Part shown: piece by piece, positions 44,017 to 49,479 of the stretch | Numbering within the stretch: position 1 is the stretch's first letter | Layout: each line of letters opens with the position of its first letter | Origin: Aurantiacibacter spongiae | GTDB lineage: Bacteria > Pseudomonadota > Alphaproteobacteria > Sphingomonadales > Sphingomonadaceae | Assembly (NCBI RefSeq): GCF_003815535.1 | Contig: NZ_RPFZ01000001.1 | Coordinates: 1 to 64,000 of the forward strand | DNA length: 64,000 bases | Direction: 5' to 3' | Notes under the pieces: model-generated | Told to the model about the DNA's origin: nothing | What the model saw: the letters and a program-made list of their open reading frames with translations, nothing else | The model's database searches: none | Made by a program: the position numbers and the translations under genes

Positions 44017-45198
44017 ATGGCGTTTTCCGCCTTTTCTTCTGCGCGTAGCACGGGGCCGACCGGCGTTCTTGTCCTTGCCGACGGCACGGTGATCCGTGGC
44101 CACGGCTTCGGCGCCACCGGGCAGGCGGTCGGGGAGGTCTGCTTCAACACCGCGATGACCGGCTATCAGGAAGTGATGACCGATCCGTCCTACGCCGCGC
44201 AGATCGTCACCTTCACCTTTCCCCATGTCGGCAATGTCGGCGCGAACCCGGAAGACGTGGAAAGCCGGGTGGAGGCGGCGGTCGGCTGCATCGTGCGCGA
44301 GGAGGTGACTGCCAGTTCCAACTTCCGCGCCAGCGCGCAGTTCGCCGAGTGGATGGCCCGGACGGGGCGGATCGGCCTGTCGGGCGTGGATACCCGCGCG
44401 CTGACCCGGCGTATCCGCATGAACGGCGCGCCCAACGCGGTCATCGCTCACGATCCGAAGGGCGAGTTCGATATCGACGCGCTGGTACGGCGCGCGCAGG
44501 ACTTTCCCGGGCTGGAGGGCATGGACCTCGCCAGCCGGGTCAGCCGGGAGATCAGCGAGCGGTGGGAGGGCGGCCACTGGACGCTGGGCGAAGGCTACGG
44601 CGCCGCGCCCGAGGTGGAGCGCCCGCACGTCGTCGCCATCGATTACGGCAGCAAGGACAACATCTTCCGCAGTCTCGCCCGCGCCGGCGCGCGGGTGACG
44701 GTGGTGCCGGCGAAAATATCGCTGGAAGAGGTGCTGGCGCTGGAGCCGGACGGCGTGTTCCTCTCCAACGGCCCCGGCGATCCGGCGGCGACGGGCGCAT
44801 ACGCGGTGCCGGTGATCAAGGCGCTGCTGGAGCGCGACGTACCGATCTTCGGCATCTGCCTCGGCCACCAGATGCTGGCGCTGGCGGCGGGGGCGAAGAC
44901 GGCCAAGATGCACCAGGGCCACCGCGGCGCGAACCACCCGGTCCAGCGCGTCGGGGAAGGGTGGGGCGACACCACCGGCCTCGTCGAGATCACCAGCATG
45001 AACCACGGCTTCGCGGTCGACGGCGACACCCTGCCTGATGGCGTCGAGCAGACGCATGTGTCGCTGTTCGACGGCTCCAACTGCGGCATCGCCATCAGCG
45101 GAAAGAAGGCGTTCGGGGTGCAGTATCACCCGGAGGCGAGCCCGGGGCCGCAGGACAGTTTCTACCTGTTCGAGAAGTTCGTGGGGATGCTGGGGTGA
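44017..45198 (+). CDS. carA: Carbamoyl-phosphate synthase small subunit
   Basis: Glutaminase subunit that feeds ammonia to CarB for pyrimidine and arginine synthesis, 393 aa. The N-terminal half has GxATGQAVGEVCFNTAMTG and YQEVMTDPSY. The class I glutaminase domain has nucleophile C281 in FGICLGHQM, with the His and Glu in QYHPEASPGP. The start is ATG 44017, with no strong ribosome-binding site. In most relatives carB follows at once; here 951 bases of unrelated sequence intervene. A weak candidate promoter TTGACG lies near 43944 in the 151-base gap to divergent yqeY. Confidence 0.97.
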   Translation: MAFSAFSSARSTGPTGVLVLADGTVIRGHGFGATGQAVGEVCFNTAMTGYQEVMTDPSYAAQIVTFTFPHVGNVGANPEDVESRVEAAVGCIVREEVTASSNFRASAQFAEWMARTGRIGLSGVDTRALTRRIRMNGAPNAVIAHDPKGEFDIDALVRRAQDFPGLEGMDLASRVSREISERWEGGHWTLGEGYGAAPEVERPHVVAIDYGSKDNIFRSLARAGARVTVVPAKISLEEVLALEPDGVFLSNGPGDPAATGAYAVPVIKALLERDVPIFGICLGHQMLALAAGAKTAKMHQGHRGANHPVQRVGEGWGDTTGLVEITSMNHGFAVDGDTLPDGVEQTHVSLFDGSNCGIAISGKKAFGVQYHPEASPGPQDSFYLFEKFVGMLG

Positions 45199-45575
45199 GT
45201 GAAACGGTCGATTATGATCGCGTCTGGCTTCCTCAGATTGTTTGGTATTGCAGGCTCATTGCTGACGATCGGAAGCTCAACATGGCTTTTGAACAATCGG
45301 GAGATAAGATTTGGACGTCGGTCGTCAATTACGATGAATTGGTGGAGCAAGTTCTCGATGTTCCGCTCGATATTCGGTTCAGCGCCATTCTTTCGACTTC
45401 GGCATCTGCCGATTTAAAGAAAGCTCTCGCGGAATTCCTAAATATGTTCACAGCGTTCGATGATGCGGTAGGTCGATCGGGTCGGCCTGATTTACAGTCG
45501 CGAGAGTGGCGCGAAATTCAAGCCCGTGCCCATGATGTTGAAGTGCTGGCCTTCGTTGAAGGGGTGGGTCGGTAA
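45195..45575 (+). CDS. Low-GC orphan protein between carA and carB
   Basis: 126 aa, no recognised family. The GTG start overlaps the carA stop (GTGA), and its TAA stop overlaps the ATG of the degenerate carB start that follows (TAATG). So it was once spliced neatly between carA and an older carB. It is mixed alpha/beta by eye with no signal or membrane segment; strings include WYCRLIADDRKLNMAF and ALAEFLNMFTAFDDA. I count 114 G+C in 45241-45480, 47.5 percent, well under the window average, so recent transfer is likely. Could be an accessory or immunity-type gene; nothing in the sequence decides this. Confidence 0.65.
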   Translation: MSETVDYDRVWLPQIVWYCRLIADDRKLNMAFEQSGDKIWTSVVNYDELVEQVLDVPLDIRFSAILSTSASADLKKALAEFLNMFTAFDDAVGRSGRPDLQSREWREIQARAHDVEVLAFVEGVGR

Positions 45576-45620
45576 TGCCCCAACGCACCGACATCTCCTC
45601 GATGCACGTTATCGACGCCG
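45575..45620 (+). pseudogene. Degenerate duplicate of the carB 5' end
   Basis: The 46 bases from this ATG match the first 46 bases of the intact carB (46150-46195) at 38 positions. The predicted peptide MPQRTDISSMHVIDA corresponds to [15 protein letters not shown] of CarB. Five of the eight differences are at third codon positions. Homology stops abruptly at 45620, where the repeat cassette begins; the frame then runs to a TGA at 45671. It marks where carB started before the cassette was inserted, or a long target duplication made by that insertion. Confidence 0.8.
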
Positions 45621-45626
45621 CGAACT

Positions 45627-45665
45627 CCCTTCCCCTTGGGGAAGAGTTGGGGATGGGGGTTCGGC
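45627..45665 (+). repeat. Left REP-like hairpin repeat
   Basis: CCCTTCCCC and GGGGAAGAG flank a TT centre (45627-45646) and form a stem with one mismatch. A tail GTTGGGGATGGGGGTTCGG follows. The whole unit is the reverse complement of the copy at 46093-46125 apart from a few changes. The minus-strand copies at 45701-45738 and 46093-46125 carry the same tail (CCCATCCC) before the stem. Confidence 0.75.
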
Positions 45666-45700
45666 GGTGGTGAGGGAGAGTGAGCTTTCTGGCGTGGTAC

Positions 45701-45738
45701 ACCCATCCCCCGGCCTCTTCCCTCTAGGGAAGGGGAGG
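45701..45738 (-). repeat. Middle REP-like hairpin repeat, overlaps the nuclease stop
   Basis: The tail ACCCATCCCCC precedes a stem (45714-45723 with 45726-45735) of ten pairs including one G-T wobble around a CT centre. The stop codon of the DUF559 gene (45726-45724) lies in the centre of this stem, and its last codons Pro-Pro-Leu-Pro are encoded by the repeat itself. Orientation is opposite to the left copy, at a spacing of about 35 bases, which is the layout of a REPIN. Confidence 0.7.
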
Positions 45739-46080
45739 CTGGTTGCGGGCGAGGTGGATTTCTTCGCTGATGACTTGCAGAACGCCTTCTGTGTTGGCGA
45801 GAACGTCGTTGTTCCAGAAGCGGATCACCCGGTAGCCGTGGGCCTCGATGATCTCCGTTCGCCCGGCATCGGTGATGCTTTCAGCGTGTTGCCCACCGTC
45901 GAGTTCGATTGCGAATCGCAAGGAACGGCAGGCGAAATCGACGATGAAGTCGCCGATCTGGTGCTGCCGGGTGAATTTCGCGCCGCAAAGCTGACTACCG
46001 CGAATATGCGACCACAAGCGCCTCTCGGCATCGGTTGGATCCTTGCGCAGGTTTCGCGCGAGGCTGGTCAATCGCTTCAT
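45724..46080 (-). CDS. DUF559 (Vsr-like PD-(D/E)XK) nuclease
   Basis: 118 aa endonuclease-fold protein of the DUF559 family, related to very-short-patch-repair nucleases. The start is ATG 46080; a TTG 36 bases upstream lies in the right repeat and is not used. After an N-terminal helical RNLRKDPTDAERRLW, the fold has GAKFTRQHQIGDFIVDF (D48), then AIELDGGQH (E59, D61, H65) and GYRVIRFWNNDV, the expected acidic active site. The C-terminus PPLP is encoded by the middle repeat. It may nick or cut DNA in moving or maintaining the repeat, by analogy with RAYT proteins; this is inferred. Confidence 0.8.
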   Translation of the reverse strand: MKRLTSLARNLRKDPTDAERRLWSHIRGSQLCGAKFTRQHQIGDFIVDFACRSLRFAIELDGGQHAESITDAGRTEIIEAHGYRVIRFWNNDVLANTEGVLQVISEEIHLARNQPPLP

Positions 46081-46092
46081 TGTGAACGCCGT

Positions 46093-46125
46093 AACCCCAT
46101 CCCAACCCTTCCCCAAGGGGAAGGG
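46093..46125 (-). repeat. Right REP-like hairpin repeat
   Basis: CCCTTCCCC (46106-46114) and GGGGAAGGG (46117-46125) are exact inverted arms of 9 bp around AA. The tail AACCCCATCCCAA precedes it. This is the closest inverted copy of the left repeat, lies just upstream of the DUF559 start, and so the gene is bracketed by inverted copies. It ends 24 bases before the carB start codon. Confidence 0.75.
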
Positions 46126-46149
46126 CTTTCGATAGCATCAAGGCCCTAA

Positions 46150-49100
46150 ATGCCCAAACGCACTGACATCTCGTCCATCCTCGTCATCGGCGCCGGGCCC
46201 ATCATCATCGGGCAGGCCTGTGAGTTCGACTATTCCGGCACGCAGGCGATCAAGGCGCTGCGCGAGGATGGCTACCGCGTTATCCTCGTCAATTCCAATC
46301 CCGCCACGATCATGACCGATCCGGACATGGCCGACGCGACCTATGTCGAGCCGATCACGCCCGAGATCGTCGCCAAGATCATCGCGAAGGAAAAGCCCGA
46401 CGCGCTGCTGCCCACGATGGGCGGGCAGACCGCATTGAACTGCGCGCTCAAGCTGGACGAGATGGGCGTGCTGGCCGAGCATGGCGTGGAGATGATTGGG
46501 GCCAGGGCCGACGCCATCGACAAGGCAGAAAACCGCAACCGCTTTCGCGAGGCGATGGACGCGATCGGCCTCGAAAGCGCGCGCAGCGGCACGGCGCACG
46601 ACATGGACGAGGCGCACGCCATCCTCGAGCGCACCGGCCTGCCCGCCATCATCCGTCCCAGCTTCACCATGGGCGGCACGGGCGGGGGCATCGCCTACAA
46701 CCGCGCCGAGTTCGAGCAGATCGTGCGCCACGGCCTCGACGCCAGCCCGACGACAGAGGTTCTGATCGAGGAATCGTTGCTCGGCTGGAAGGAATACGAG
46801 ATGGAGGTTGTCCGCGACAGGAACGACAACGCCATCATCATCTGCGCCATCGAGAACGTCGATCCGATGGGCGTCCATACCGGCGATTCGATCACCGTCG
46901 CCCCGGCGCTGACGCTGACGGACAAGGAATACCAGATCATGCGCTCCGCCAGCATCGCGGTTCTGCGCGAGATCGGCGTGGAGACGGGCGGATCGAACGT
47001 GCAGTTCGCGGTCAACCCGAAGGACGGCCGCCTGATCGTGATCGAGATGAACCCGCGCGTGTCGCGCTCGTCGGCGCTCGCCTCCAAGGCAACCGGCTTT
47101 CCCATCGCCCGCGTCGCGGCCAAGCTGGCGGTCGGCTACACGCTGGACGAGATCGACAACGCCATCACCGGCGCGACGCCCGCCAGTTTCGAGCCGACCA
47201 TCGACTATGTCGTCACCAAGATCCCGCGCTTCGCGTTCGAGAAGTTCAAGGGCGTCGAGCCGAAACTGTCCACCGCGATGAAGTCGGTCGGCGAGGTCAT
47301 GGCCATCGGGCGCAACTTCAAGGAATCGCTACAGAAGGCGCTGCGCGGTCTGGAGACGGGCCTCGACGGGTTCAACCGCGTCACCGAACTGGAAGGGCAG
47401 AGCCGAGAGATCATCACCGCCTCGCTGAGCCAGGCGACACCCGACCGCATCCTCAAGATCGGCCAGGCCTTCCGCGAGGGTTTCACCGTGGAGGAGCTGC
47501 ACGCGATCACCTTCTACGATCCGTGGTTCCTGCGCCATATCGAGGAGATCATCTACGAGGAGCAGATGATCGGGCAGGATGGCCTCCCCAACGATGCCGA
47601 CAGCCTGCGCCGCCTGAAGGCGATGGGCTTTTCCGACCGTCGTCTGGCAACGCTCGCGGTGCGCTCGGTCGGCGTTGCGGGCGGAATGGGCGAGACGCAG
47701 GCCAAGCGCTCGGGCCTGCTGCATGACGCCCTTCGCGCGATGGCCGGCGCGACCAGCGAGGAAGAGGTCCGCAAGCTGCGCCAGAAGCTGGGCGTGCTGC
47801 CCGTCTACAAGCGGATCGATTCCTGCGCTGCCGAATTCGAGGCGATCACCCCCTACATGTACTCGACCTACGAACAGCCGAGTTTCGGGGAAGCGGAGAA
47901 CGAGGCCTGGCCGTCCGAGCGAGAGAAGGTCGTGATCCTGGGCGGCGGCCCGAACCGGATCGGGCAGGGCATCGAGTTCGATTACTGCTGCGTCCATGCC
48001 TGTTTCGCGCTCGCCGAGGCGGGGTACGAGACGATCATGATCAACTGCAATCCGGAAACGGTCAGCACCGATTACGACACCTCCGACAGGCTCTATTTCG
48101 AACCGCTGACGGCAGAGGACGTGCTGGAAATCCTGAGGGTCGAACATAGCCGCGGCACGCTCAAGGGGGTGATCGTGCAGTTCGGCGGGCAGACGCCGCT
48201 GAAGCTCGCCGGCGCGCTGGAACAGGCGGGCATTCCGATCCTGGGCACCAGCCCCGACGCCATCGACCTCGCCGAGGACCGCGAACGCTTCGCCAAGCTC
48301 GTCGGCAAGCTGAAGCTGACGCAGCCGATGAACGGTATCGCCAAGAGCCTGGACGAAGCGCTCGCGGTGGCGCACCGCATCGGCTATCCGGTGCTGCTGC
48401 GCCCCAGCTACGTGCTGGGCGGGCGGGCGATGGAAGTCGTCGACGGCGACGCGCAGCTCGAAAACTACATCGATACCGCCGTCACCGTTTCCGGCGACAG
48501 TCCCGTGCTTGTCGATCAGTATCTGCGCGATGCCATCGAATGCGACGTCGATGCGCTGTGCGACGGCGAACAGGTCGTGATCGCCGGGGTCATGCAGCAT
48601 ATCGAGGAGGCGGGCGTCCATTCGGGCGATTCCGCCTGTTCGCTGCCGCCCTACAGCCTCTCGCCCGACATCGTCGACGAAATGAAGCGGCAGGCCGAGG
48701 CGCTGGCGCTGGCTCTCGACGTGCGCGGGTTGATGAACGTGCAGTTCGCGGTGAAGGACGGCGTCGTCTATCTGATCGAGGTCAATCCCCGCGCGAGCCG
48801 CACCGTGCCCTTCGTCGCCAAGGCGACCGGGGCGCAGATCGCCAAGATCGCCGCGCGCGTCATGGCGGGGGAGATGCTGGCGGATCTGCCGGCGGTGAAC
48901 ATCGACATCCCCTACGTCGCGGTGAAAGAGGCGGTCTTCCCCTTCAACCGTTTTCCCGGCGCGGACCCGGTACTGACGCCGGAGATGAAATCCACCGGGG
49001 AGGTGATGGGGATCGATCTCGACTTCCCCACCGCCTTCGCCAAGTCGCAGATCGCCGAGGGCAGCAAACTGCCCAAGTCGGGCACGCTCTTCGTTTCCGT

Positions 49101-49479
49101 CAAGGACAGCGACAAACCGCACATCATGGAGCCGGTTCGCCAGCTGGCGCAGATGGGGTTCGACGTTGTCGCAACCGGCGGAACGCAGCGCTACCTGGCC
49201 GAGCAGGGTCTCTCGGTGGAACGGATCAACAAGGTCGCGGAAGGGCGTCCGCACATCGTCGACCGGATGATCGACGGCGACATAGCGCTCGTCTTCAACA
49301 CCACCGAGGGCTGGCAGAGCCACCGCGACAGCCAATCGATCCGCGCTTCCGCGCTGGAAATGAAGATACCCTATTATACGACGGCAGCCGCGTCGGCGGC
49401 GGCGGCCCGGGCGATCGTCTCGGTCGATGCGAGCGCGCTTGAAGTGCGTTCCCTGCAAGACTATTATAGCCAGAGCTAA
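46150..49479 (+). CDS. carB: Carbamoyl-phosphate synthase large subunit
   Basis: Full-length synthase, 1109 aa, with two homologous halves, each with an ATP-grasp domain. The first half starts [19 protein letters not shown] and carries [13 protein letters not shown]; the second starts [19 protein letters not shown] and carries [11 protein letters not shown]. The last about 140 residues are the MGS-like allosteric domain. It uses ammonia from CarA and two ATP. Start ATG 46150 with AAGG six bases upstream. The carB ribosome-binding site lies just outside the inserted cassette, so it can be translated even though the link to carA is broken; transcription may depend on read-through across the cassette. 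Confidence 0.98.

Follow-up and report, generated by a model that had tools for sequence, protein, structure and literature searches.

Relict carB starts and orphan cargo genes in the carA-carB gap of Aurantiacibacter spongiae and its family

We analyzed the interval between carA and carB in a 64,000-nucleotide stretch of DNA from Aurantiacibacter spongiae (contig NZ_RPFZ01000001.1, positions 1 to 64,000; this whole stretch is the window below). Between the two genes lie an orphan gene (cargo gene A), a short relict of the carB start (carB'), and a repeat-bounded cassette with a single open gene, on the minus strand, that encodes a DUF559 protein. From carA to carB, the features are:

44017..45198, + strand: intact carA (open reading frame, ORF); its terminal GTGA gives the cargo gene its overlapping start codon
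45195..45575, + strand: orphan cargo gene A, 126 amino acids (aa); GTG start on the carA stop, stop on the relict ATG
45575..45620, + strand: carB' relict, fossil carB bases 1-46 (38/46 identity)
45621..45651, + strand: left inverted-repeat arm of the cassette, containing palindrome 45628-45645; 90% complementary to 46101-46131
45724..46080, - strand: DUF559 gene (PF04480), family function not established; start at 46080 picked by eye, listed ORF reaching 46116
46101..46131, + strand: right inverted-repeat arm of the cassette, containing palindrome 46107-46124
46132..46149, + strand: remainder of the DUF559/carB border (17-25 nt spacing at 11/13 loci examined)
46150..49479, + strand: intact carB (ORF), 1109 aa

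The initial annotation of the window had described a 46-base match between the two carB starts that ends where the repeat begins, an orphan gene that ends in TAATG with the duplicate, and an intact carB start beyond the cassette, and we confirmed each of these points. Positions 45575-45620 align without gaps to 46150-46195 (38/46 identical), the match runs through 45620 with the first repeat arm from 45621, and the orphan stop TAA at 45573-45575 overlaps the relict ATG at 45575. The local alignment score of the relict is 31, compared to a maximum of 15 among 200 composition-matched resamples of the spacer. Its frame reads MPQRTDISSMHVIDAANS... and meets a stop after 32 codons, and 46 of the 154 other carB starts resemble it more than the window's own carB does. 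A genome of another genus (G248; this and similar labels are our own) supports the further claim that the orphan was at one time joined straight to an older carB: in it, carA, the orphan and a TAATG carB follow one another with one carB start and no cassette.

G248, with an orphan homologue in the same slot (36% identity), is the sole other genome to carry one among 397 family genomes, and the window's genus gave no homologue in its 39 other genomes. A search of ~5.8 billion proteins gave four further homologues, one of them named Qipengyuania sp. MTN3-11. The orphan has no Pfam family in a profile scan; its structure model is all-helical (mean pLDDT 88) and had no fold match in the PDB at E <= 0.001 (best E 1.0). 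The overlaps at its start and stop suggest that it may be translated together with carA.

To place this arrangement among its relatives, we tried 161 carA-carB loci and resolved 155; six were dropped, one of them for a gap > 2600 bp. These loci are not a random sample, since within the family we took the top-ranked portion of the 242 matching genomes. Six genomes in the set belong to different families of the same order, and at least one genome is represented by two entries (G035 and L048). The sampled family is presumably Sphingomonadaceae in the GTDB sense. The gap between carA and carB has a median of 443 bp (range 0 to 2506), and its interquartile range is 88-578 bp, compared to 137-159 bp for the gap between yqeY and carA (86 of the 155 loci, with both placed), which also shows outliers of up to 536 bp. 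carA ends in GTGA in 99 of the 155 loci and carB starts in TAATG in 71. The relict scan covered the 129 gaps of at least 120 bp; in the frame test (128 gaps, with one N-containing gap excluded), 88 gaps were open over 90% or more of their length in the frame set by the carA stop, compared to 6 and 5 in the two alternative frames. The gap usually holds one or a few small genes, mostly running from a start on the carA stop to an end on the carB start.

The contents of the gap differ widely. Clustering of the 128 first-cargo proteins gave 53 clusters, 34 with a single member, and the 35 genomes of the window's genus hold 18 of these clusters. Cargo varies even among close relatives, and the nearest neighbor has the same cargo in 17 of 122 cases. 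Cargo identity tracks the flank tree only weakly (59 cargo changes compared to 66.3 +/- 2.2 after shuffling; 89 rows, 18 clusters), a comparison blurred by the largest first-cargo cluster, in which gene Y and the ORFs opposite DUF559 are lumped together. In this bacterial family, the gap between carA and carB serves as a cargo slot.

We scanned 115 of the 128 first-cargo proteins (alignment A1; the excluded ones are 12 that lie across or opposite DUF559 and one duplicate) against Pfam. Four were DUF6680 proteins, six other families had one or two members each, and 11 of the 115 slot occupants scanned were RraB-like, a name that denotes regulators of RNase E. No recombinase or integrase was among the Pfam families of these proteins; for later cargo, the scan covered selected proteins only. 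As candidate defense systems the cargo genes fared poorly, with one weak PADLOC match among the 115. DUF559 genes are present in 21 of the 129 gaps and PIN toxin genes in six, with an antitoxin beside the toxin in 4/6 by BLAST and 6/6 by clustering; the names PIN and FitA come from Pfam for L061 only. In all six, a palindrome like a toxin-antitoxin operator lies 43-45 bp ahead of the carB ATG.

Much of this cargo appears to be private to the slot. For the four cargo families that we searched, all 16 non-self matches at E <= 1e-6 were at the slot, to which matches were assigned by comparing their coordinates with carB places and gap lengths. The orphan contributed its one match described above. 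In 249 genomes, the cargo of G244 had two strong matches at the slot (G163 and G216) and one weak match outside, and a 75-aa family occurred in 12 genomes including the query (11 non-self), always at the slot, with the placement in G213 and G274 taken from carB contact alone. This family was found in 0/385 genomes of the class, in a set with no genome known to match. The cargo of G107 had strong matches in G223 and G151, both at the slot, and two weak ones outside. At solid scores, each of the four families thus matched only at the slot.

We then counted relicts, defined as internal, forward matches that score at least 22 against bases 1-150 of the same locus's carB. Relicts occur in 13 of the 129 gaps. 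At this score, the carB5 reverse complement, carA3 and the carA3 reverse complement each gave 0/129, two carA mid segments 0/121 each, and the next carB segment 0/128. At a score of at least 19, there were 16/129 relicts, compared to one match for the carB5 reverse complement, one for carA3, none for the carA3 reverse complement, one for each of the two carA mid segments and none for the next carB segment. One of the 16, in G026, matches carB 36-79, lies inside a gene and is taken as chance. The sole carA3 match is a relict of the carA 3' end in G023 (L034 spacer 1707-1751), which lies right behind a carB relict and is a single case in the 129 gaps. A genus search gave no carB relict of similar extent away from the car locus, although it also missed the window's own relict and so says little.

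Most relicts share a left edge, and what follows them differs. In the 13 gaps, the first relict base corresponds to carB base 1 in ten cases, to base 3 in two and to base 7 in one; relict length is not constant, from 26 to about 130 bp. The 20 bases 5' of the relict and of the intact ATG share only 3-10 positions in 16 pairs. Since these upstream bases are not clearly alike, the copy begins at the border between cargo and carB. A DUF559 cassette follows the relict in G000, G009, G023, G162 and G293; a toxin-antitoxin module follows it in G087, G153, G162, G293, L056 and L061, which are all six gaps with such a module; other (orphan) genes follow in the remaining cases. In G162, G075 and G107, a cargo gene extends in frame from the relict start, so that some slot genes take their own N-terminus from a fossil carB start. 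We noted cargo genes whose first codons derive from a fossil carB start (MPKR...) in L225 (spacer 1024), L186 (spacer 288) and L179 (spacer 514), which then enter a lipoprotein-like signal sequence, as judged by eye.

The initial annotation had explained the window's relict by a cassette that entered carB at or near codon 15, the start being doubled by a long target duplication or rebuilt by repair. This transposition would account for a relict that stops exactly at the cassette repeat and for the same order in G009, G023, G162 and G293. However, cassette-free relatives (G019, G223, G107, G190 and L061 among others) keep two carB-like starts, an outcome that the initial annotation had itself named as refuting; the length of the repeated segment varies, it is followed by several kinds of cargo, and its left edge sits at or within 7 bases of the ATG. 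With a target duplication, some of the orphan tail would be expected in the copy in many cases; the lack of clearly shared sequence 5' of the ATG therefore counts against it. Moreover, the spacing between DUF559 and carB is similar across genera, and 20 DUF559 loci of the genus outside the slot had no consistent flanking duplication of 40-50 bp in a crude scan. Five of these 20 do have flanking direct repeats (scores 26-54), several built of other repeat sequence; the strongest surrounds the locus in L252 (score 54). Thus, the fossil start, the orphan/carB junction and the intact start on the far side stand, but cassette entry with target duplication is rejected as the general explanation, and we regard it as very improbable.

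We favor a different explanation, as probable though well short of certain: cargo spreads by recombination through carA and carB, and one-sided events leave carB' between cargos. Cargo would pass between species on DNA with car flanks, via homologous recombination in the conserved carA and carB genes, and the usual exchange would be a clean swap of cargo. Occasionally, the carB side alone would pair, and the incoming cargo end would be joined illegitimately to the start of the resident carB gene, at a point tens of bases past its ATG. The product would read, in order, old cargo, carB'(1..n), new cargo and intact carB. For the window, this would make orphan A the older cargo and 45575-45620 its former carB start, and the DUF559 cassette would have arrived together with the present carB start.

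This recombination reading makes carB, not carA, the anchor, a point of which we are less sure. Three loci have more than one relict, and in 3/3 divergence is lowest in the relict closest to carB (G162, 0.97 compared to 0.92 and 0.69; G293, 0.96 to 0.91; G023, 0.80 to 0.69), which favors addition on the carB side. Alternatively, an incoming carA/cargo/carB' segment might pair in carA and join before the resident cargo, such that the relict is the donor's and the left cargo the newest. Anchoring in carA predicts identical anatomy, and it explains both the carA relict of G023 and the recurrence of one DUF559/carB or toxin-antitoxin/carB border behind differing left cargo. The order of divergence in the arrays, few as they are, speaks against it, as do the six PIN toxin genes, which match near full length though such a joint could have trimmed them. 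We consider this version unlikely.

The DUF559 protein of the window matches PF04480 at E 2e-37 (127.8 bits compared to a curated cut-off of 20.6), with a match to PF18741 (REase_MTES_1575) under its cut-off. We examined 13 of the 21 slot DUF559 loci; in 11 of them, 17-25 nt separate the end of the last palindrome from the ATG of carB or carB', and the spacing is 24 nt at four loci, including the window and G162, from another genus. More generally, the border next to carB is largely kept for a given type of cargo, and the left joints are variable. From this spacing, the cassette seems to travel with the carB start. In a DUF559 tree, slot copies lie apart from 21 copies outside the slot (5 changes compared to 14.0 after shuffling; 0/500), and the window's copy groups with those in the slot of G162 and G066, from other genera (support 91/85 and 93/81); the slot DUF559 of G048 is absent from this tree. 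A second slot lineage adjoins non-slot copies. Judged by the tree, the cassette seems to spread within the slot.

Outside the slot, the 20 DUF559 loci of the genus had no match to the cassette palindrome pattern, and the window's genome has one other DUF559, which is diverged. We also considered the palindrome as a dispersed repeat mobilized by DUF559 and rejected this, as the 18-bp pattern (<= 1 mismatch) occurs in the window's genome only at the two ends of the cassette. A similar palindromic repeat is scattered in the genomes G009, G020, G021 and G023. In G025, DUF559 is split across two adjoining matches (G025:C7:369372-369685), possibly a broken copy.

We considered two further explanations. 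In the first, an unequal exchange copied cargo and carB start in place, and the copies then diverged. Such a tandem duplication is simple, and the youngest relicts (G087, L061, the 115-bp and 26-bp relicts of G162 and the 56-bp relict of G293) have their own carB as best or tied match, with none of the 153 or 154 other carB starts scoring above it. Nevertheless, the cargo on either side of a relict differs in kind where it can be assigned, and cargo families reappear at the slot across genera, so we find tandem duplication quite improbable. In the second, the carB start is an attachment site for an unseen recombinase that acts in trans, which would fit the single conserved target, and a duplicated gene start recalls elements that restore a gene end. 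The variable relict length, a cargo/carB spacing that depends on cargo type, and the lack of a recombinase among the Pfam families of the 115 first-cargo proteins make site-specific integration the least probable of these explanations.

Several observations weigh against recombination through the car flanks. No recombination event and no pair of donor and recipient was seen among the loci compared, and a comparison of congeners gave no clear polarity. Cargo does keep some tree signal, as the 59 changes equal the lowest value in 500 shuffles, and three cargo matches of lower significance (E 1.6e-4 to 5.8e-4) fall outside the slot. Differences between relict and intact start are at third codon positions in 38 of 62 cases (61%), between pure decay and functional divergence, so that the relicts may be of foreign or of own origin. 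The G009 relict is not significant by itself (score 15, as high in 10/200 nulls), though a separate search gives carB 3-34 at 88%. DUF559 spacing is not uniform (49 nt in G048, no such palindrome in G080), the non-slot DUF559s come from one genus only, and the cross-genus branches are moderately supported. Finally, in published cases, one-sided illegitimate recombination usually comes with loss of recipient DNA (PMC3240628); as far as the relict, we see no such loss in the window, which keeps both it and the complete left cargo ORF.

Spacers between carA and carB are variable in Neisseria, and Pseudomonas aeruginosa has the order carA-ORF-carB; such spacers are repeat-rich or hold a single ORF. 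We know of no carB-start fossils or shared cargo pool in either. Among the papers listed in our literature search, which reached few subscription journals, none deals with a carA-carB cargo slot.

The closest published parallel is, by analogy, the array of orphan immunity genes of the type VI secretion system (T6SS) in Vibrio cholerae, for which one-sided homologous/illegitimate recombination has been proposed (PMC5361080). As described there, modules are added successively at one locus via a conserved flank, and heterogeneous stacked genes are parted by remnants of displaced genes, as they are here in G162, G293 and G023. In V. cholerae, the remnants come from variable effector genes beside a secretion system, whereas here they derive from the 5' end of an essential biosynthetic gene whose operon contains the slot, and the kinds of cargo are unrelated. 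Homology-facilitated illegitimate recombination likewise joins one homologous and one illegitimate end around an insert of about gene size, as we propose here; it generally involves a deletion and 3-10 bp of microhomology (PMC3240628). At the slot, the visible trace is a short duplication. The slot may thus work like this process without being a proven case of it. Small variable segments in bacterial genomes (PMC2884548) are also short and lie between conserved flanks; they are described at the level of species, whereas the slot is family-wide with apparently its own gene pool.

We see about equal grounds for and against the broadest reading, in which the gap is a family-wide, recombinase-free exchange site with a private gene pool, many of whose small genes would occur nowhere else in these genomes; the pool would pass between species solely on the car flanks, be expressed through start and stop overlaps with carA and carB, and carry datable carB starts from imperfect exchanges. 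A carB-like start upstream of carB is not necessarily an annotation error or a second gene. If this reading is correct, a core biosynthetic operon would shuttle orphan genes without a mobile element of its own, and fossil starts would record the order in which cargo arrived. The spread and persistence of orphan genes, and the frequency of natural one-sided gene stacking, would then become directly testable.

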